Shown here piece by piece: positions 52,727 to 63,165 of a stretch of DNA of 64,000 nucleotides. Numbering within the stretch: position 1 is the first letter of the stretch; every line of letters begins with the position of its first letter. Source of the stretch: Nocardioidaceae bacterium (GTDB taxonomy: Bacteria > Actinomycetota > Actinomycetes > Propionibacteriales > Nocardioidaceae); contig JAUJOD010000002.1 in assembly GCA_030447865.1 (NCBI GenBank), positions 255,881 to 319,880 on the forward strand, in the 5' to 3' direction. The position numbers and the translations under genes are program-made. Below the pieces are notes generated by a model. The model worked only from the letters and a program-made list of their open reading frames with translations. It was not told where the DNA came from and made no database searches.

Positions 52727-53380
52727 TCAGTTGTCGAGGCCGATGTCGCGGCGAAGCGCCGGCAGTCCCTCAACCTCCAGCGGGTACTGCGAGCGGACCA
52801 GCTGCGCGGGCAGGAGGGTGAGGCGCTCAGCGATGGCCAATTCTCCGTCGCGACGCTTCTCGCGCGTCTGCCCGTTGGGTGAATATCCCACCTTGCGGCT
52901 CACGGCACCCGAGGCGGGGTTGTCGACGAAGGCGACTGAGGTGATCTCTTCGGCCTCAAGGTGGTCGAAAAGAAATCTGCACATGGTCTGGCGCATGAGC
53001 GTGCCGGTTCCTCGTCCTTGGTGCTCGAGCCCCAACCACGAACCGGTCTCGCCGGTGCGGGTGACGAGATAGTTCTCGGCGGCGAAGGCCTGAATGCCGA
53101 CGACCTGGCCATCGCGTCGTACGACGAGCTCCAACGACCAGCGCTCCGGGGTGTTCCGGGCACGGCTCTCCCAATAGTGCACGGCCATCTTTCGGGCGAG
53201 CTCTGTCTTGGGGGCGTCGGTCCAGGGGAACGTGAACGGCATCCGGTCGGGCGGGTGGATCCCGCGCTCGGCCAGGTCGACAAGCGCCGGAATGTCGTCG
53301 TCGCGGACCGCTGCGAGCTCCAGCGGCCCGGACCTGATGCGGAGGGCGAACTGCGGCCAGAATTCCTCGATGCTCTTCAT
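52727..53380 (-). CDS. GNAT acetyltransferase, RimJ/RimL-like
   Basis: Acetyltransferase of 217 residues. Acetyl-CoA loop EHQGRGTGTLMRQ near 120 and FVDNPASGAVSRKVGY near 155, as in RimJ/RimL-type GNATs that act on protein N termini or amino compounds. Substrate unknown. ATG 53380; no operon partner. Convergent with the carbonic anhydrase gene. Confidence 0.85.
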   Translation of the reverse strand: MKSIEEFWPQFALRIRSGPLELAAVRDDDIPALVDLAERGIHPPDRMPFTFPWTDAPKTELARKMAVHYWESRARNTPERWSLELVVRRDGQVVGIQAFAAENYLVTRTGETGSWLGLEHQGRGTGTLMRQTMCRFLFDHLEAEEITSVAFVDNPASGAVSRKVGYSPNGQTREKRRDGELAIAERLTLLPAQLVRSQYPLEVEGLPALRRDIGLDN

Positions 53381-53431: not shown

Positions 53432-54118
53432 TCACCGGATGAGCGGTAGCCTTCCGACCGCTTCGCCGAGCTCATCGCGCTCCCCGGCGCCGAGGGCGCG
53501 CCGTCCGGTCAGCCCCCGAGCCAGCGCCACATCGGCCCAGTGACCGGGGGCTGGCCGTCCCAACAGGCCCTCAAGCGTGCGACGCGTGAGCTGCAGCCCG
53601 GTCGCCGGTGGTGGCAGGCCGTCAGAGAGAGCGACGACAAGGTCGAGGTGGTGCAGGGTCGCCTCGACGACGAGGGTCTCGAAGAAGTCCGTGGCCGTGA
53701 GGACATGGCCTTGAGTGGCCACCCGGGCGGTCGGGTCGAAGCGCCGGGCGGCAGCGACGGCTGCGCACGCGGTGTGGGTCCAGTGCCGCACAAGGGCGGA
53801 GGGTTGTTCGTAGGCTTGCGCGCTTCGCCGGACGAACGCCGCGCTGGCCTCCCGCGCACGCTCATCGTCCCCGTCTTCGGCGGCGTACGCCCGCCAGTAC
53901 GAGACGGCGTTGGTGTCGGCATCCTGCTTGACGGGGTCGGCGAGGGCGATCAGGCAGCGCTGGGCGTCGAGCATGATGTGGAAGAGCAGTGCGTCAACCG
54001 GCCACGCCTCGCACCCCGTCGGGCGGGCAAAGTCCTCGGGGACGAGTTCCGCGGCGACGTCAGTGATCGCCCTGTAAGACTCCCCAAGCGCGGCAGCGGT
54101 GTACTGCGAGCAAGGCAC
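53432..54118 (-). CDS. DinB/mycothiol-dependent maleylpyruvate isomerase-like protein
   Basis: DinB-fold protein of 228 residues of the MDMPI_N type (TIGR03083-like), a mycothiol-linked enzyme family. Metal-ligand-like His in LLFHIMLDAQR and VEATLHHLDL. GTG 54118 starts MPCSQYTAAALGE. A diverged copy of its 5' end, including 25 bp upstream, lies at 58034-58086 on the other side of the ABC transporter genes, which suggests the transporter island inserted into or beside a former paralogue. Confidence 0.78.
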   Translation of the reverse strand: MPCSQYTAAALGESYRAITDVAAELVPEDFARPTGCEAWPVDALLFHIMLDAQRCLIALADPVKQDADTNAVSYWRAYAAEDGDDERAREASAAFVRRSAQAYEQPSALVRHWTHTACAAVAAARRFDPTARVATQGHVLTATDFFETLVVEATLHHLDLVVALSDGLPPPATGLQLTRRTLEGLLGRPAPGHWADVALARGLTGRRALGAGERDELGEAVGRLPLIR

Positions 54119-54409
54119 AGCTAGATCCTGCCAAATGCGGCTCCCTTCTCCTCCACGCCGCCTGGGTCGGCTTCCGCACCGCAGCAGGCTGGGAACGTTG
54201 CCAAGCAGACACGATCTCTGCGGACGGTACAGATGGACGCGGAGTCGCCCCTAGGTGGCCAGCCAGCGGATTGCCCCGATTCCCGGGTGAGCCGCCAGTG
54301 ATCCGGCAACTTACTCCGAGCCAGACCTAACCTCTACGCCAATCCGCTGACTCTCGCCGCTAGCTAATTGAACGGCATCAGCATTGGAACCGTCCGGCGC
54401 GCGGATCAC

Positions 54410-54421
54410 CGTTACGTAACG
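54410..54421. promoter_or_regulatory. 12-bp palindrome upstream of the ABC exporter
   Basis: CGTTACGTAACG is a perfect palindrome about 85 nt before the permease start. Shape of a dimeric regulator site; no regulator gene is visible nearby. Confidence 0.4.
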
Positions 54422-54459
54422 CTCTCGCCGAGCATCGACCACTGCTGCGGGTGGGTCGG

Positions 54460-54465
54460 TACAGT
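54460..54465 (+). promoter_or_regulatory. Putative -10 hexamer of the ABC exporter operon
   Basis: TACAGT, with TCGACC 19 nt upstream as a weak -35. It leaves a 40-nt leader containing GGAAGGGGG before the GTG at 54506. Confidence 0.3.
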
Positions 54466-54505
54466 CTTGCTGGCCCGATCACGTGCGCGGGGAAGGGGGC
54501 CCAGC

Positions 54506-57277
54506 GTGTTGCAGGGACTCGCCTTCACTTGGGCCCGGTTGCGGCATCAGTGGGGCAGAAGTGCGGCGGTTGTCTTGAGCTTGGCGATCGCGGTCACTGC
54601 ATTTGTGGTGCTCACGTCGACGGCCCGTGAGTCAAGACTAGTGACCGTCCGCACGGTGAACGAGAACTATCGATCAGCCTATGACATCCTCGTCCGGCCA
54701 AAGAACAGTCAAACGGATTTGGAACGATCTGCCGGGCTGGTTCGGCCAAACTACCTCTCGGGGATCTTCGGTGGGATCACCTGGCAGCAGCTACGGGAGA
54801 TACGCCAGATTCCTGGGACGTCCGTGGTGGCACCGATCGCTATGATCGGGCAGGTCCTGCAGACGACTGACGTTCCGGTAGACGTTAGTTCGAGTTTGGG
54901 CGGTGGACGGGACGCGGTCGGCTTCACCTCCTCGTTCGTCAGTGCGCGTGGACAAGCGCGGGCAGCAGGCCCCGCAGGTTATGTCTATGTGACACCCAAC
55001 AGGCTCACGTGGGGCCCGCTGACGGCTCCTTCGCAGTCCTTCGGAGCCGTGGAGCGGCAGGGCCACCGAAGTGTCACCACCTGCCGGCATGCTGCGCCAG
55101 CGCGGCGTTACGGTTCGCCGTTTGAAGCTGCTCGGCTCTGGCAAGTCAGCTGCTGGTCCCGCGTCAGCGGTGATCCGAATGGGGAATGGTCGCCCCTGGG
55201 AAGCTACCGCTACCCCGCATACATCACCGTGTCGATCCCGGTCACTGTTGCCGCAGTGGACCCGGCCGCTGAGGCCGCGCTCGCTGGGCTCGACGGAGCG
55301 GTCGTGGCTGGTCGATACCTCCGTCAGTCAGATCGGCCCGAGCGATTGCCGGCACCAGCCAACGACAGTGTCGCAGTCCCGGTGATCGCGAGTTCCCGCC
55401 CGGTGGTCAACGAGAGGTTGATCGTCAAGGTGCACGAGCTGCCGCGACGAGTGGTCGAGGCGATACACCGAGGGCGGGGCCCTAGCTCGATCCGCCACCG
55501 GATGGCAAGGTTGACCGATCGTCCCGTCCGCATCATCCAGGTGCGTGCGGGCGAGATCGTCAACTCATGGCTGGACGCCGCACGTCTCAACGCTCCAGCT
55601 GTGGACGGTTACTGGGTCCCGGGGCAGGTGGACTACGCCGGCGCAGCCGGTGGAGTGCTGCACCCTCAGCCCACCCGGAATGGCGAACGGACGTGGGCCT
55701 CGAACCTGGGCCGTGGCAGCGGTGGATTTGTCGCGGTCCCTCCGGACGCCCAGGGCACCGCCTATCGAGAACTGTCACCGCATCGGCTGATCAACTCAAC
55801 GACGCGCAAGCACGGCGGCTTGTCGATCCCGGTGCTGGACATCGTTGGCACCTTCGACCCGTACCGAATCCGTGGGTTCTCGGCCCTGTCGCAGGTACCC
55901 CTGGAGACGTACCGTGCCCCAACCGCGACACCGGCCAACCGCGCCACCGAGCGCGCTTTAGGTGGTCAGCCACTGCTGCCGAACATGAATCCGGCAGGAT
56001 ACCTTCAGTCACCGCCCCTGCTGCTGACCACGTTGCGCGGATTGAGGGCATTCCATAACCCCGCTGCATTCACAAGACAGAACACGCCGAAGGCTCCTAT
56101 CAGTGTGGTCCGGGTCCGGGTCGCTGGAGTGACTGGAGCGGACCCGGTGAGCCGTGAACGCATCAGGTTGGTCGCACAACGCATTCAGGAGTCGACCGGA
56201 CTGCACGTCGACATCACCATCGGTTCCTCCCCGGCGCCTCAAGAAGTTCGGCTGCGGGATAGGCCCCTGGGCACACCGCCGTTCACCGTCGTGGAGAACT
56301 GGGTGAAAAAGGGCGTTGCCACGCAGGTAATCGCCGCCATCGACCGCAAGAGCCTTGCCCTTTTCATATTGATCCTGGTTTCGAGCGGGCTGGCCGTGGC
56401 CAACGCCACCAACGCGTCCGTTCGGGCGCGCCGTCGGGAACTAGGTGTGCTTGCGTGTCTGGGCTGGCGCAGACGGACCTTGATTCAGGCAGTGTGCAGC
56501 GAACTACTGATCCTTGGGCTGACCGCTGGCATTATCGGGAGCCTGGCCTCGATCCCGGTGTCCCACGTCTTGGGCTCACCGGTGGGGGCTCCTCGCGCCC
56601 TGTTGGCGGTCCCGGTCGCCCTGCTCGTCGTCTTCATCTCCGGTGTGGCTCCGGCGCTGTGGGTCGGCAGCATCGAGCCAATCTTCGCCGTCCGCCCACC
56701 GGGCTCTCCCCGATTGCCGAAGATTCCGCTGAGGGGAGTCGTCGCCGTAGCGATTTCTGCGTTGATCCGCACTCCCGGACGCTTCATCGCTGCGGCGCTC
56801 AGCGTGTCCCTAGGGATAGCCAGCCTGATTGTCCTGCTGTCGATCGCCCTGGCTTTCCAGGGCGATGTGGTGGGAACCCTGCTCGGAGATGCAGTCGCGC
56901 TCCAGGTCCGCACCCCAGACATCGTGGCGGGCGCATTCATTGCTTTGCTCGGCATCGTCACCGTCCTTGACCTCATTTACCTGGATCTGCGGGAACAGGC
57001 ACCGAAGTACGCCTCCTTGCAGGCCACCGGGTGGACCGACGCCCGGCTCATGGGGCTGCTGGTGTGGCAGGCCGCCCTGACTGGTTTCTGTGGCGCTCTT
57101 GTAGGTGCTGCCGGTGGCATCGCGGCCGTCAACTGGCTCGTCTCGCTGAACCAAGACGTCATCAAAGTCGCCGCTGCCGTCGCAGTAGCCGCCGTCATCA
57201 CGTCTGCTGTCGCCGCGCTCATACCGGCGCTAGCCATCCGCCGACTACCCACCGCGCGGCTGCTGGCAGAGGAGTAG
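54506..57277 (+). CDS. ABC transporter permease with large extracytoplasmic domain
   Basis: FtsX/MacB-type permease of 923 residues from GTG 54506, preceded by GGAAGGGGG. One hydrophobic segment near residues 14-36, then an extracytoplasmic region of roughly 550 residues, then a cluster of hydrophobic segments from about 605 to the end, with a conserved cytosolic LGVLACLGWRRRTLI and ASLQATGWTDARLMGLL coupling-helix pair. This is the two-FtsX-domain layout. Ectodomain of unknown fold with several Cys. No signature for a substrate: peptide, lipid or antibiotic export is possible. Four nt separate it from the ATPase gene. Confidence 0.8.
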   Translation: MLQGLAFTWARLRHQWGRSAAVVLSLAIAVTAFVVLTSTARESRLVTVRTVNENYRSAYDILVRPKNSQTDLERSAGLVRPNYLSGIFGGITWQQLREIRQIPGTSVVAPIAMIGQVLQTTDVPVDVSSSLGGGRDAVGFTSSFVSARGQARAAGPAGYVYVTPNRLTWGPLTAPSQSFGAVERQGHRSVTTCRHAAPARRYGSPFEAARLWQVSCWSRVSGDPNGEWSPLGSYRYPAYITVSIPVTVAAVDPAAEAALAGLDGAVVAGRYLRQSDRPERLPAPANDSVAVPVIASSRPVVNERLIVKVHELPRRVVEAIHRGRGPSSIRHRMARLTDRPVRIIQVRAGEIVNSWLDAARLNAPAVDGYWVPGQVDYAGAAGGVLHPQPTRNGERTWASNLGRGSGGFVAVPPDAQGTAYRELSPHRLINSTTRKHGGLSIPVLDIVGTFDPYRIRGFSALSQVPLETYRAPTATPANRATERALGGQPLLPNMNPAGYLQSPPLLLTTLRGLRAFHNPAAFTRQNTPKAPISVVRVRVAGVTGADPVSRERIRLVAQRIQESTGLHVDITIGSSPAPQEVRLRDRPLGTPPFTVVENWVKKGVATQVIAAIDRKSLALFILILVSSGLAVANATNASVRARRRELGVLACLGWRRRTLIQAVCSELLILGLTAGIIGSLASIPVSHVLGSPVGAPRALLAVPVALLVVFISGVAPALWVGSIEPIFAVRPPGSPRLPKIPLRGVVAVAISALIRTPGRFIAAALSVSLGIASLIVLLSIALAFQGDVVGTLLGDAVALQVRTPDIVAGAFIALLGIVTVLDLIYLDLREQAPKYASLQATGWTDARLMGLLVWQAALTGFCGALVGAAGGIAAVNWLVSLNQDVIKVAAAVAVAAVITSAVAALIPALAIRRLPTARLLAEE

Positions 57278-57280
57278 GAC

Positions 57281-58006
57281 ATGGGCGCCCACACTGACCG
57301 GTCGATGGCCGAGGGAACCGTCGTCCTAGAAGACGTGACCAAGCGCTACCGGCTCGGCGACGGCTCCTGGCTGACCGCGATCGACTGTCCCAACTTTGTC
57401 GCCGAATCTGGGTCCTCCACCGCGTTGGTCGGTCCATCAGGTTCAGGTAAATCGACACTGCTTCATCTAGTCGGCGCGATCGACAAGCCTGACCGGGGCA
57501 GGATTACCGTGGGTGGGCTCGACCTCACGGCACTCAACCGCAGGCAACTCGCCGACTACCGGTCAACGATCGGATTCGTGTTCCAGCAATACCACTTGCT
57601 GCCCGCGATGTCCGCCCTCGACAACGTTATGGCACCCCTCGTCGGACGAAAGGTTTCCTACGACCGCAAACAGCGGGCACTCGAGCTACTCACTTCGGTG
57701 GGACTAGCTGACCGAGCGCACGCCGTGCCAAGCCAGATGTCCGGCGGCCAACAACAACGCGTGGCTATCGCCAGGGCATTGATCAACAACCCAAGACTCT
57801 TGCTTGCCGACGAGCCCACCGGCAACCTGGACGCCACAACTGCCGCAGGGATCATCGAACTGCTACGTGGTCTCCAAGCCGAGCGGGGCATGACCATGAT
57901 CGTCGGCACCCACGATGAGGCAATTGCCAAGAGGTGCGACACCGTGGTGCCGATTGAACAGGGCGCGCTCGATGCCGACCCGGGTCGCCGGCTTTCTTCG
58001 GGTTAA
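57281..58006 (+). CDS. ABC transporter ATP-binding protein (MacB/LolD-type)
   Basis: Nucleotide-binding subunit of 241 residues: Walker A GPSGSGKST, Q-loop FVFQQYHLLP, signature MSGGQQQRVAIARAL, Walker B LLLADEPTGNLD and H-loop THDEA. LolD/MacB group, which pairs with FtsX-type permeases, here the gene just upstream. Complete and not disrupted. Beyond its stop lies debris and then recombinase genes, so the pair looks like transferred cargo. Confidence 0.92.
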   Translation: MGAHTDRSMAEGTVVLEDVTKRYRLGDGSWLTAIDCPNFVAESGSSTALVGPSGSGKSTLLHLVGAIDKPDRGRITVGGLDLTALNRRQLADYRSTIGFVFQQYHLLPAMSALDNVMAPLVGRKVSYDRKQRALELLTSVGLADRAHAVPSQMSGGQQQRVAIARALINNPRLLLADEPTGNLDATTAAGIIELLRGLQAERGMTMIVGTHDEAIAKRCDTVVPIEQGALDADPGRRLSSG

Positions 58007-58033
58007 TCAGCGGCCATCCAACGAGAGGGCGTC

Positions 58034-58086
58034 GCGCGGCGGCGGTGTACTTCGGGCAAGGCATGGCTAATCCTGCGAATGCGACT
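58034..58086 (-). pseudogene. Relic of the 5' end of a DinB/MDMPI gene
   Basis: Aligns with 54089-54142 with about five mismatches and two single-base gaps: same start region (MPCPKYTAAAR versus MPCSQYTAAAL) and the same upstream bases (AATGCG...AGGAT). Only about 11 codons survive. Indicates a second, lost copy. Confidence 0.6.
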
Positions 58087-58089
58087 GCC

Positions 58090-58155
58090 TCAGGCGTCGA
58101 TCGCGTCGGGGTCGAGTTCGTACGCGCCTTGCACGATGAACCTGTTGCACCGGGT
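58090..58155 (-). pseudogene. C-terminal fragment of an unidentified protein
   Basis: On the minus strand a frame ends NRFIVQGAYELDPDAIDA then TGA at 58090-58092. It reads like a real protein tail but has no start and I do not recognise it. It may be debris from a gene cut by the island. Confidence 0.3.
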
Positions 58156-58189
58156 TGTGCTACCCCGACGCGGACCACCGACGCGCCGG

Positions 58190-58241
58190 ATGCCGCTCGG
58201 ACAGCAGCATTATGCCGGTGATCCGTGCGCGGCTTGGTCAT
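58190..58241 (-). pseudogene. Truncated third gene of the recombinase set (DUF6262/TnpC-like)
   Basis: A start codon at 58241 overlaps the stop of the second recombinase as ATGA. The first residues, MTKPRTDHRHNAAVRAAS, resemble the start of the small DUF6262/TnpC-type proteins that follow paired recombinases; the frame then runs into unrelated sequence. Confidence 0.4.
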
Positions 58242-59482
58242 GATGCTTCGTCTTCCGTGAGACCGGTGAGGAGTTTGTCGAAGAGGTTGGCTCGGTGGTG
58301 TTGGCCCTTGGCTTCAGCGTCGTCGTGCTGGGCTTGCAGGGTGGGCCGGAACTCGATGCTGGTCTGGAAGAAGGTGCAGGTTTCGCAGATCGCCTCGAAA
58401 GCGCAGTCGAGCTCGGCTGGTCGGGTGCAGTGGCCGTTGCCGAGTAGGCGGTGGTGCTCGCGGCGCAGTCGGGCCATCTTCGGTCCGATGGTGTCGGCGG
58501 GCAGAGGCTCGGCTTGCGCGTAGAGGGCGTCGACCTGGTCGGTGACGGCGAAGTACTCATCTGCGACGGTGCGGTTGGCGATCTTGGCGTAGCGCAGGGT
58601 CATGTCCATGCTGCGGTGGCCGAGCATCGCCGCGATCGCTTCCAGGCTCATTCCGCGGTTGATGGCCTGGGTGGCCAGGGTGTGCCGCAGCTGGTGGGGG
58701 TGGATGTGCGGCAGTCCGGCGGCGGCGCCAGCCTTGTTCAAGAACCGGGTGACTGTGTGCCGGTCCAACGGCCGGCCGTTCTCTCCCGGGAGCAGCAGCG
58801 GATGATCTGCTGGGACGTGGGCGGCGCGGTAGTCGTCGATCAGCTGCACCAGGTGTGGGTGCAGCGGCAGGTAGCGGTCCTCGCGGAGCTTGCCGACCGG
58901 GACGTGCAGCCAGGGCGCGGCGCCGATCTGGACCACGGCGTCAGCGGGGAGCGCAGTGAACTCGCTGACCCGCAGCCCGGTGCGCAGGAGAACCTCGACG
59001 GTGACCCTCACCAGCAGCCGCTTGTCGTTCGCAGCGGTGCGCAGCAGCTTCGCGGCCGCGGCGTCGTCGAGTGCCTTGGGCAGCGGATGGTCCTGTCGGG
59101 GCAGGTCGCCGGGGAACATCGGCACCCGTAGTGGCGCCTCGTCCCAGCCCCATTCGTCGATGCGGACGAAGAACATCCGCAAGGTGCCGAGCCGGTGCGC
59201 CAGGGTGGCGGTGGTGACCCGGGCCTTGTTCTGTCCGGGTCGTTTGGCCAACCAGGGCTTGTAGTCCTCGACGTGCCGCCGGGTCACCTGCGCGATGGAG
59301 GTGACCTCGGGGGCGGTCTCGACGAGGAACCCAGCGAACGCTCGCAGTGCCTGGTCGGTGTTGTTCACGCTGCCCGGTCTGAGCACGCAGGCGATCTGCT
59401 CGAGGTAGCGACGCATCGGCTCGGTGATCTGCGGGCGCGCCGCCAGTTCCGGCCAGGTGGGCAGCAGCAGCGGCCCGCTCAC
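58238..59482 (-). CDS. Tyrosine recombinase, TnpB-like (second of pair)
   Basis: Phage-integrase-type recombinase of 414 residues. Core-binding domain to about 140; catalytic RTGLRVSE, HPHQLRHTLAT (H-x-x-R) and LGHRSMDMTLRYAK with the nucleophile Tyr. A C-terminal extension has Cys at HCTRPAELDCAFEAICETC, a likely zinc-binding element seen in Tn554-type TnpB recombinases. GTG 59482 overlaps the first recombinase stop (GTGA). Intact; may move the adjacent exporter genes. Confidence 0.88.
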   Translation of the reverse strand: MSGPLLLPTWPELAARPQITEPMRRYLEQIACVLRPGSVNNTDQALRAFAGFLVETAPEVTSIAQVTRRHVEDYKPWLAKRPGQNKARVTTATLAHRLGTLRMFFVRIDEWGWDEAPLRVPMFPGDLPRQDHPLPKALDDAAAAKLLRTAANDKRLLVRVTVEVLLRTGLRVSEFTALPADAVVQIGAAPWLHVPVGKLREDRYLPLHPHLVQLIDDYRAAHVPADHPLLLPGENGRPLDRHTVTRFLNKAGAAAGLPHIHPHQLRHTLATQAINRGMSLEAIAAMLGHRSMDMTLRYAKIANRTVADEYFAVTDQVDALYAQAEPLPADTIGPKMARLRREHHRLLGNGHCTRPAELDCAFEAICETCTFFQTSIEFRPTLQAQHDDAEAKGQHHRANLFDKLLTGLTEDEAS

Positions 59483-60588
59483 CGGGCGCTCCCACCGATA
59501 GTGTTCGGCTGGCCGGCGTAGAGCTGGGCGTCGAGCACCTCGGCGGCCTTCCGATACTGAGAGGCCAGCCAGTCATCGGCCAGATGCAGGTAGATCCGGG
59601 TGGACTCGATCGAGGCATGCCCGGCCTGGGCCTGAACCGCCTCCAGCGCCATGCCGGCCTCCCGGAGACGGGTCAGGCAGGTGTGCCGCAGCTCGTGACA
59701 GGTCGCATGCGCGAGGCCGGCGCGGCGTCGGGCGCCGGTGAGTACCTCGTCCAAGCCCTTGGCGGACAAGGGTCTCCCACGGTTGGGTCCCTTGAGCACC
59801 ACGAACACCCGGTCGGTGTCCGCGCCGGCTGGCCGCTCGGTCTCCAAGTAGGCCGCGACCGCGGTGAAGAACCGCGTCGAGACCGGGACCAGTCGCTGAT
59901 GTCCGCCCTTGCCGTCGGCGATGAACACTCGCCGTTCGGCGACCCGTAGGTCCTCCAGCCGCAAGCCCAGCACCTCACAGCGGCGCAGCCCACCGAACAC
60001 CATCGCGGCCACCATCGACTGGTCCCGGTGCCTGCGCAGTGCGGCGGTCAACGCATCCACCTCGGCCGGGGTGAGGATCCGCGGCAGCCTGCGGGTCCGT
60101 CGAGTCAGTGGCACCCCCTGCCCCGGCCGGGACCGCTCCCGTCGTGTCGGCAGACCCCGGAGCACCGGGTTCGCGGTGACGTCTCCACGAGCCTGCAGGT
60201 AGCCGAAGAAGCCGGAGATAATCGACAACCGTCGCGCCACCGTGCTGATCGCCACCCCGCTGTGCTCCTCGCCCCCATCCACCGGCTGCACGATCGCTCC
60301 GTCCCTGCGGCCGGTGCGCTGGGCAGTAATGAACCCGAGCACGTCGGCCGACCGCACCTCCCTTGGTGGCTTACCGACGACGGTAAAGAACACCCGCAGG
60401 TCATACGCGGCGGCCAGCACCGTGTTCGGTCGACACCGGCCCTCCAAGAACTCCAGGTAGTCGTCGACCAACGGCATCGAGAGCCGCACCACCGGTTCGC
60501 CGGACGGTCCTCGAGAACGGACAGGCACGGATCGGACAACGACATCTCTAGGCCTCCAGCTCCATCGACAGGCAGCCACACGGCTCAT
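59479..60588 (-). CDS. Tyrosine recombinase, TnpA-like (first of pair)
   Basis: Recombinase of 369 residues from ATG 60588, which has AGGACA upstream; other starts at 60639 and further in are possible. SAM-like core-binding domain about 40-150, then GGLRRCEVLGL (first Arg), CHELRHTCLTRL, AGHASIESTRIYLHL with the Tyr nucleophile. Two recombinases with overlapping ends, then a truncated DUF6262-like gene, copy the TnpA-TnpB-TnpC design of Tn554-like elements. Element ends were not located. Confidence 0.87.
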   Translation of the reverse strand: MSRVAACRWSWRPRDVVVRSVPVRSRGPSGEPVVRLSMPLVDDYLEFLEGRCRPNTVLAAAYDLRVFFTVVGKPPREVRSADVLGFITAQRTGRRDGAIVQPVDGGEEHSGVAISTVARRLSIISGFFGYLQARGDVTANPVLRGLPTRRERSRPGQGVPLTRRTRRLPRILTPAEVDALTAALRRHRDQSMVAAMVFGGLRRCEVLGLRLEDLRVAERRVFIADGKGGHQRLVPVSTRFFTAVAAYLETERPAGADTDRVFVVLKGPNRGRPLSAKGLDEVLTGARRRAGLAHATCHELRHTCLTRLREAGMALEAVQAQAGHASIESTRIYLHLADDWLASQYRKAAEVLDAQLYAGQPNTIGGSAR

Positions 60589-60657
60589 CGAAATGTCCTG
60601 AAAGATCACCGGCATAACGAGCAGATCCGGATGGGCCACGATTCTTGATGGGTGCCG

Positions 60658-61014
60658 TTAGTAGTGCCTCGCAGCGCCTGACCGACGCCACCATGTCGCC
60701 AGCAATCCAGCCGCAATCAGGGCAAGCGCCGCGGTCACCACGCCTAAGACTCGTGCGTCATCTGCGTCTTCCTGGTGGCCGCTTGTCGCGGCCGCGAGCC
60801 ATATGAGGCCAGCGACGGCGGCGAGGAGAGCAGCGCCAGTTCCGCACTTCATGAGGCCACGATTGCGTTGGCGGCGCTCGGCGAGCAAGGGCCGTCGCCA
60901 CAGGACTTCTGCCGCTTGGTTCCTGGCCGCTAGTCCCAAGACGTCCAGGACGACGTACCCAAGGAGGAAAAGAACTGCGAGTCCGACGGTTCCGAGCACC
61001 CCGACGGGCTCCAT
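60658..61014 (-). CDS. Small three-TM membrane protein
   Basis: Membrane protein of 118 residues with three hydrophobic segments (about 7-27, 58-78, 88-107) and a basic middle loop (RRPLLAERRQRNRG). Not recognised. ATG 61014 follows TAAAGT by 6 nt. It lies between parE and the recombinases, on the same strand; GC and codon use are ordinary, so probably chromosomal. Confidence 0.6.
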   Translation of the reverse strand: MEPVGVLGTVGLAVLFLLGYVVLDVLGLAARNQAAEVLWRRPLLAERRQRNRGLMKCGTGAALLAAVAGLIWLAAATSGHQEDADDARVLGVVTAALALIAAGLLATWWRRSGAARHY

Positions 61015-61086: not shown

Positions 61087-63165
61087 TCAAACGTCGAGAT
61101 CCTCAACGCTCAAGTGTCCTCCGTTACTAATGACGAAGTCCTTGCGCGGTGCGACGTCGTTGCCCATGAGCAGCTCGAAGACGCGTTCGGCGTCGTCGGC
61201 GTCGTCGATCGTGATGCGCCGCAACGTGCGGTGGCGGGGGTCCATGGTGGTCTCAGCGAGCTGATCCGCATCCATCTCGCCGAGGCCCTTGTAGCGCTGA
61301 ACTGGGTCCTTCCAGCGGACTCCCTTCTTCGAGAGCTCGGCGAGCCGTCGCTGCAGCTCGTCGTCGGAGTACGTGTACACGTATTTCGGCATCCCCTTCT
61401 TCGGGTTGGAGAGCTCGATGCGATGCAGTGGCGGTACGGCGGAGTAGACGCGCCCCTTCTCGAGCAGCGGATGCATGTGCTTGTGGAACAACGTCGCCAG
61501 CAGGCACCTGATATGGCTCCCGTCAGTGTCGGCGTCGGCCATGAACACGATCTTGCCGTAGCGGACCGCGTCAAGGTCGAACGTGCGGCCGCTGCCGGCG
61601 CCGACCACCTGAATGATGGCCGCGCACTCGGCGTTCTGGAGCATCTCGCCGGGAGACTTCTTCTGGGTGTTGAGGATCTTGCCCCGGACCGGCAATAGCG
61701 CTTGGTACTCGGAGTTGCGAGCAAGCTTCGCGGTGCCCAGCGCGGAGTCACCCTCGACGATGAACAACTCGCTGCGATCGACGTCGTTGCTACGACAGTC
61801 GGCAAGCTTGGCCGGCAGCGCGCTGGACTCGAGAGCGTTCTTGCGCCGCTGGGTGTCGCGCTGCTGACGTGCCGCCACGCGGGTGCGCGCGGCGTTGACG
61901 ACTTTCTCCATCACCGCCCGCGCCTGCGGCTTCTCTGCTTTCTTGGTCGAGGTGAGGAAAGCCTTCAGCTGCGCCGACACCACCTTGGTCACAATCCGGG
62001 CGGCGGCGGGCGTACCGAGCACCTCCTTGGTCTGGCCCTCGAACTGAGGCTCGGCCAGCCGCACGGCGACCACGGCGGTCAGACCCTCCAGGACGTCGTC
62101 CTTGATCACGTCAGCTTCGCCCGCCTTCAGCAGCCGGGTGGACCGGATGACGTCGTTGAAGGTCTTGGTGAGGGCCCGCTCGAACCCCACGACGTGGGTG
62201 CCGCCCTTCGGAGTGGCAATGACATTGACGAACGACCGCAGCTCGGTGTCGTACCCGCTTCCCCAGCGCAACGCTACGTCGACGGCGAGTTCACGGTCTA
62301 CGTCCTGCGGGCTCATCTGGCCGGCGGCGTCGAGCAGGGGGACGGTCTCGGTGAAGGACTCCGAGCCCTGAAGCCGCAGAACACTCGTGACCGGTTCATC
62401 GACTGCCAGGTATTCGCAGAACTCGGCGATGCCGCCGTCATGGCGGAACCGCTCCTCGACCACCTCGTGGCCGCGCTCGTCGCGGACGGTGATGTCGAGT
62501 CCCGGCACGATGAACGAGGTTTGCCGCGCCCGGGTCACGAGCTCGTCGTAGGCAAAGACTGCGTCACGGGTGAACACCTGTCGGTCGGGCCAGAACCGCA
62601 CCCGGGTGCCGCTTACGCCCTTCTTCACCCGACCGCTCTTGGCCATGCCCGACTGCGGCCTGAACTCAGCGGTTGGGCCAACGCCGGCGAAGACACCCGG
62701 AACGCCGCGCCGGAACGACATCGTCCAGGTGGCAGGACTCCGGTCGACCGCAACGTCGACGCGAGCGGAGAGCGCGTTGACCACCGATGCGCCGACACCG
62801 TGCAGGCCGCCGGTGGCGACGTAGGACCCGCCACCGAACTTCCCCCCTGCGTGCAGCCTGGTGTAGACAACCTCGACACCGGACAGCCCTGTCTTCGGCT
62901 CGGTGTCGACGGGGATGCCGCGCCCGTCGTCTCGCACCTCTGCTGAGCCATCGGAGTGCAAGATCACGACGATGTTGCGGCATTGTCCGGCCAACGCCTC
63001 GTCGACACTGTTGTCGATGATCTCCCACAGGCAGTGCATGAGCCCGCGGGTGTCGGTCGAGCCGATGTACATGCCGGGGCGCTTGCGGACCGCGTCGAGG
63101 CCTTCGAGCACCAGCAGGTGACGGGCGTTGTACGACGCATCGACGGCGGATCCGCGCGCTACCAC
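61087..63165 (-). CDS. parE: DNA topoisomerase IV subunit B (ParE-type)
   Basis: ATPase subunit of type IIA topoisomerase, 692 residues. GHKL ATPase motifs EIIDNSVDEALAG near 48, DDGRGIPVD near 78 and GGLHGVGASVVNALS; transducer domain; TOPRIM with LFIVEGDSALG and DADTDG. C-terminal GyrB/ParE signature QRYKGLGEMDADQL. GTG 63165 has AGGAGG 6 nt upstream. Partner of the ParC at 47 kb; in Streptomyces the two lie similarly apart. The 288-nt gap to the next gene has no supported gene. Confidence 0.95.
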   Translation of the reverse strand: MVARGSAVDASYNARHLLVLEGLDAVRKRPGMYIGSTDTRGLMHCLWEIIDNSVDEALAGQCRNIVVILHSDGSAEVRDDGRGIPVDTEPKTGLSGVEVVYTRLHAGGKFGGGSYVATGGLHGVGASVVNALSARVDVAVDRSPATWTMSFRRGVPGVFAGVGPTAEFRPQSGMAKSGRVKKGVSGTRVRFWPDRQVFTRDAVFAYDELVTRARQTSFIVPGLDITVRDERGHEVVEERFRHDGGIAEFCEYLAVDEPVTSVLRLQGSESFTETVPLLDAAGQMSPQDVDRELAVDVALRWGSGYDTELRSFVNVIATPKGGTHVVGFERALTKTFNDVIRSTRLLKAGEADVIKDDVLEGLTAVVAVRLAEPQFEGQTKEVLGTPAAARIVTKVVSAQLKAFLTSTKKAEKPQARAVMEKVVNAARTRVAARQQRDTQRRKNALESSALPAKLADCRSNDVDRSELFIVEGDSALGTAKLARNSEYQALLPVRGKILNTQKKSPGEMLQNAECAAIIQVVGAGSGRTFDLDAVRYGKIVFMADADTDGSHIRCLLATLFHKHMHPLLEKGRVYSAVPPLHRIELSNPKKGMPKYVYTYSDDELQRRLAELSKKGVRWKDPVQRYKGLGEMDADQLAETTMDPRHRTLRRITIDDADDAERVFELLMGNDVAPRKDFVISNGGHLSVEDLDV

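Follow-up and report, generated by a model that had tools for sequence, protein, structure and literature searches.

The locus analyzed here raises the question of how an ABC exporter gene pair came to lie between an intact gene of the DinB/MDMPI (mycothiol-dependent) family and a second, partial copy of that gene's 5' end. The window, i.e., the whole stretch of 64,000 nucleotides examined, corresponds to G000:C2:255881-319880, G000 being the genome that carries it. Family relatives include Nocardioidaceae MAG YX3bin2 and Nocardioides sp. QY071; the comparison genome used most below, G001, belongs to the same genus as G000 and is 70% complete. The features on the DinB side of the locus are the following (window positions):

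52727..53380, minus strand: GNAT acetyltransferase gene (Pfam Acetyltransf_3), the outer edge of a variable slot, 95% colinear with G001
53432..54118, minus strand: intact DinB/MDMPI family gene, 228 aa, GTG start (Pfam MDMPI_N, 3.7e-13)
54088..54145, minus strand: repeat copy 1, covering the opening ~33 nt of the intact DinB and ~25 nt ahead of it (matches copy 2 in 48/58 columns)
54146..58033, no strand assigned: ABC segment between the repeats, 3.9 kb, missing at the G001 locus (GC 0.643 vs. 0.678 for the window)
54506..57277, plus strand: FtsX-like ABC permease, 923 aa (Pfam FtsX, 9.4e-17; 42% paralogue in G000:C3)
57281..58006, plus strand: LolD/MacB-type ABC ATPase, 241 aa (Pfam ABC_tran; NCBIfam LolD is the best match, under its cut-off)
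58034..58089, minus strand: repeat copy 2 (the relic), a DinB-like start (ATG...MPCPKYTAAA) plus a 25-nt spacer, reaching the parE stop codon (by alignment to copy 1)
58090..58140, minus strand: displaced native 3' end of parE (FIVQGAYELDPDAIDA and stop; 47/51 identical to the parE end of genome G003, with the family-consensus tail)

A DinB relic joined to a displaced parE end

The MDMPI_N domain of the intact gene scores 50.8 bits against a Pfam cut-off of 24.2, which places it within the DinB/MDMPI family. A sequence-only reading of this DNA had noticed that its 5' end and the 25 bp upstream recur just past the ABC genes, and alignment bears this out. The two stretches (54088-54145 and 58034-58089, in the same orientation) are identical in 48 of 58 columns (83%), with 2 single-base gaps, and their Smith-Waterman local score of 62 compares with a best score of 35 among 300 random sequences (Markov queries of equal length and dinucleotide make-up, searched against the window). 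On the minus strand DinB starts GTG CCT TGC TCG CAG TAC ACC GCT GCC GCG and the relic ATG CCT TGC CCG AAG TAC ACC GCC GCC GCG; the start codons thus differ (GTG at 54118 in DinB, ATG in the relic), and the longest exact run shared by the copies is about 10 bp. The repeat ends where the MDMPI_N domain begins (DinB residue 13), so that the duplication includes none of the conserved part of DinB. Nor was any further DinB sequence, outside the 58 bp, found at 54146-54505 or 58007-58033. Joining the 5' end of the relic to DinB in silico yields an intact in-frame ORF of 228 aa.

The earlier description of the relic's neighborhood was right about the ABC side and overlooked the other, where the repeat boundary falls at a parE stop codon and the displaced parE end follows. 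This segment corresponds to the final 51 bp of the parE genes of related genera (identity 92% in G003, 84% in G002 and G024), and when it is joined in silico to the parE body an intact 2079-nt ORF of unchanged length is obtained, ending in RKDFIVQGAYELDPDAIDA and a stop, which is the family consensus. Since the relic abuts the displaced parE tail, it records the order parE stop, 25-bp spacer, DinB start. A genome search found a single DinB in G000, and beyond contig G002:C48 (described below) the nearest DinB proteins, in the family and class, are about 46-49% identical. By codon usage and GC3, DinB (0.825) and the GNAT gene (0.839) look native.

The exporter segment and its variable slot

An FtsX-domain permease with an adjoining ABC ATPase identifies the two genes of the segment as an exporter of the FtsX/MacB type. 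The predicted exporter would presumably work as an ordinary MacB/LolCDE-type pair, having, as those systems do, an FtsX-domain permease and a LolD-like ATPase side by side; here, however, there is a single permease of 923 aa and the ATPase stays under the curated cut-offs for LolD and MacB. Codon bias, which the sequence-only reading had proposed to examine together with GC, deviates modestly across these genes: GC3 is 0.73 for the permease and 0.72 for the ATPase, against about 0.8-0.89 for most genes of the window. Three shorter window genes show GC3 values similar to those of the pair, so that the deviation points only modestly to a foreign origin. The pair has a patchy distribution: at E <= 1e-50 it was found in 15 of 391 genomes of the order, with 33-53% identity outside this locus. 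We rejected a phage origin (no relative among viral contigs), a plasmid origin (the best plasmid matches, in Streptomyces, have about 36% identity) and a defence system (PADLOC gave weak generic ATPase or LolE-like matches only). Elsewhere in the same genome, G000:C3 (L072 4223-7719) carries a second FtsX permease, 42% identical, with an ATPase in convergent arrangement.

A relative without the island, the comparison that had been suggested for the locus, is provided by G001. This genome follows the window colinearly (95%) up to 53436, where its homology on the GNAT side stops, and again from 61075. The slot in between (L113 3992-9100) is occupied by a sigma-factor-like gene, lipoprotein-like genes with internal repeats and an ISL3-like transposase (ORF reading), with no DinB, ABC or recombinase genes; nor was a DinB or ABC match found elsewhere in this 70% complete genome. 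Within the order, the distance from the carbonic anhydrase gene to parE ranges from about 60 bp to 8.7 kb (gene-order reading). Together with the slot contents of G001 and of Nocardioides G360 (see below), this range indicates that the parE-GNAT slot is a variable insertion locus, one that keeps gathering foreign genes. Judging from these comparisons, the ABC pair is a lineage-specific insertion in this slot. No tRNA or Rfam attachment site was found there.

The arrangement DinB-ABC-relic-parE tail is also seen in a second assembly, on a 4527-bp contig binned with another genus (G002:C48; L049, 1-4527) that is 99.96% identical to window positions 53640-58166 and stops 40 bp short of the recombinase element described below. 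The parE of G002 is only 80% identical to that of the window, and therefore this contig is probably either misbinned or very recently transferred. Its reads may not be independent of those behind the window, and we do not count it as a second occurrence.

Insertion at the parE end and the two-recombinase element

The body of parE lies about 3.0 kb away from its displaced tail. The split tail and the restored consensus ORF imply that the parE 3' end received an insertion of about 3.0 kb, by which the relic was separated from the parE body. The features of this stretch are:

58206..60634, minus strand: ~2.43-kb mobile unit, bounded by inverted repeats (TTATGCCGGTGATC...GATCACCGGCATAA) and carrying overlapping genes for two tyrosine recombinases; copies in G185 and G001
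58238..59482, minus strand: tyrosine recombinase B, 414 aa (Pfam Phage_integrase)
59479..60639, minus strand: tyrosine recombinase A, 386 aa (Pfam Phage_integrase)
60658..61014, minus strand: 118-aa ORF that reads as hydrophobic (unmatched in Pfam, NCBIfam and PHROG)
61087..63165, minus strand: parE/gyrB-type gene with a replacement 15-codon tail (VISNGGHLSVEDLDV) (Pfam, NCBIfam; tail comparison)

The replacement tail occupies 61087-61135, the two body/tail junctions of parE have TTC(A/G)TC in common, and the 118-aa ORF is a remnant of the insertion. The two recombinases form a pair of adjacent, co-oriented genes that overlap by 4 bp, each with a Phage_integrase domain. The pair moves as a unit, as seen in genome G185, where two copies of 2431 bp, 99.96% identical, are located at unrelated sites; G001 has a 94% copy with the same ends at yet another site. 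From these copies, it is an autonomous and separate mobile unit. Related recombinase proteins are found on Nocardioides and Rhodococcus plasmids, including pREL1 (NC_007491), and a related copy of the element itself is present on the Nocardioides plasmid NZ_CP124682.1. Tn554-like tyrosine-recombinase pairs have been described in Actinobacteria (PMC3414803) and resemble the present one in being two adjacent, co-oriented tyrosine recombinases, multi-copy and mobile, but the published long partner has 611-828 aa, compared with 386 and 414 aa here. Neither a TnpC partner nor an abnormally long TnpA was found, the 118-aa ORF giving no match in Pfam, NCBIfam or PHROG. We considered whether the ABC island could be part of the recombinase element and rejected this, the element being its own ~2.43-kb unit with its own ends. 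It lies between the relic and parE, outside the ABC segment, and so does not by itself explain that segment.

G001, G006, G020 and G028 likewise have alternative parE tails of equal length. For example, the parE of G001 is 46-47/48 identical per block to that of the window up to nt 2019 and then 28/45 over the tail, a break that suggests a putative independent tail replacement at the same point of parE. In G020 no displaced parE tail was found within 40 kb. Nocardioides G360 (L188 4416-4988) has two copies of the parE tail (72 bp, 93% identity), separated by about 500 bp with one small ORF, i.e., a one-gene insertion at the parE end. G360 was the only one of 70 genomes checked to have a nearby second parE tail, the window being the other case. 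A general literature search returned nothing on parE as an integration site by title or abstract.

How the exporter segment may have arrived

The explanation that we favor, with moderate confidence, is that the ABC segment entered the 5' end of a resident DinB downstream of parE and left the 58-bp imperfect repeats. Both the order of events and the recombination mechanism are what we infer from the scars. The ancestral order, to judge from the fossil junction, would have been parE-DinB-GNAT, all on the minus strand, with the DinB start 25 bp after the parE stop. A 3.9-kb segment carrying the FtsX-type ABC pair would then have entered at the DinB 5' end, the outcome being one intact DinB and a second copy of its leader and first ten codons still joined to parE, so that two 58-bp copies would flank the island. 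These copies may be imperfect attachment-site repeats of an integrative segment without its own recombinase, or the scar of a recombination anchored at the DinB 5' end. Separately, about 3.0 kb would have entered the parE 3' end, supplying the new 15-codon tail, and would now hold the Tn554-like two-recombinase element.

A repeat score far above chance, the repeat boundary at the parE stop codon, the restored parE and DinB ORFs, the colinearity of both G001 flanks around other cargo, the low GC3 of the ABC genes next to a native-looking DinB and GNAT gene and the variable distance between the carbonic anhydrase gene and parE count in favor of this insertion. Tyrosine integrases use direct repeats of 8-60 bp at the 3' or, rarely, the 5' ends of genes, and decayed integrative elements can retain the repeats without the integrase (PMC5704250, PMC4701971). 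Specifically, decayed elements of the CIME type keep attL and attR, have no integrase and are found in tandem at gene ends (PMC5704250). Our segment is similar in its recombinase-free cargo, the target gene kept intact and the neighboring insertion at the same locus, and its imperfect direct repeats at a gene end may correspond to attL and attR; it differs in that the repeats are only 83% identical, the target is a 5' end and the segment is not known to excise or to have a full-length relative. Counting against the insertion are the longest exact run, short for an attachment core, the lack of a recombinase in the island, the uninserted parE-DinB junction being found in 0 of 335 family genomes (among the matches listed, none continues beyond the parE stop into DinB) and the fact that the ABC pair was not found beside DinB elsewhere in relatives. 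A repeat starting exactly at the parE stop codon is not what an attachment-site model predicts. The 83% identity also weakens that model and leaves room for the import of a second allele or for a lost tandem copy.

The sequence-only reading had the ABC genes inserted within or beside a former tandem copy of DinB. Insertion beside DinB agrees with our data, G001 lacking both DinB and the ABC genes there and the GC3 of the pair being modestly off; the tandem copy is unsupported. It could be that DinB was duplicated in tandem after parE and that the first copy was then interrupted or replaced by the ABC genes, with only its 5' end left behind. Indeed, a start codon, a leader and ten DinB-like codons in frame are present in the relic, with an identity compatible with an old duplicate. 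We consider this unlikely: none of the 29 DinB-bearing family genomes (341 searched, 1.5-kb flanks read) has a second DinB adjoining the first, G000 has just one, neither edge of the island preserves any further DinB remnant and the relic runs straight into the parE end. The absence of a second copy from every relative had been named as a finding that would speak against the idea, and as far as these genomes go this is what is found for a tandem copy.

The divergence between the copies (17%, vs. 5% between the two sister genomes) and the cut of the relic at an arbitrary codon would be accounted for if imported DNA, bearing its own DinB allele and the ABC genes, had recombined with the resident DinB through one homologous and one illegitimate crossover. 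The relic would then be the resident 5' stub and the intact DinB that of the donor. Yet DinB has native-looking codon usage and the ABC genes do not, and no donor with DinB beside the ABC pair was found, which makes such an import rather improbable. We regard as very improbable a reading in which the 58-bp block is no gene remnant but an attachment or regulatory sequence, a site or leader that the poorly conserved first codons of DinB happen to overlap. The repeat does stop ahead of the conserved domain (MDMPI_N from residue 13); against this, only two copies were found, inspection revealed no convincing inverted repeat and both copies retain a start codon.

Returning to the insertion into a resident DinB, we tentatively raise a broader possibility, about which we remain doubtful: the parE 3' end, together with the start of the DinB gene behind it, may constitute a recurrent integration site of the Nocardioidaceae, taking up small cargo that is mobilized in trans, with replacement parE tails or gene ends keeping the target working. 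Cargo would then amount to the exporter pair in the window and one gene in G360.

No new enzyme class or mechanism is implied by this locus, which documents genome insertion with unusual clarity but is ordinary in kind and adds one more case of known processes. For the family, the parE 3' end emerges as a possible site of repeated insertion, with G360 and, judging from its divergent tail, G001 as further cases. The history of the slot can still be read from its scars, namely the displaced parE end, the fragment of the DinB start and the reading frames that are restored when the pieces are rejoined.
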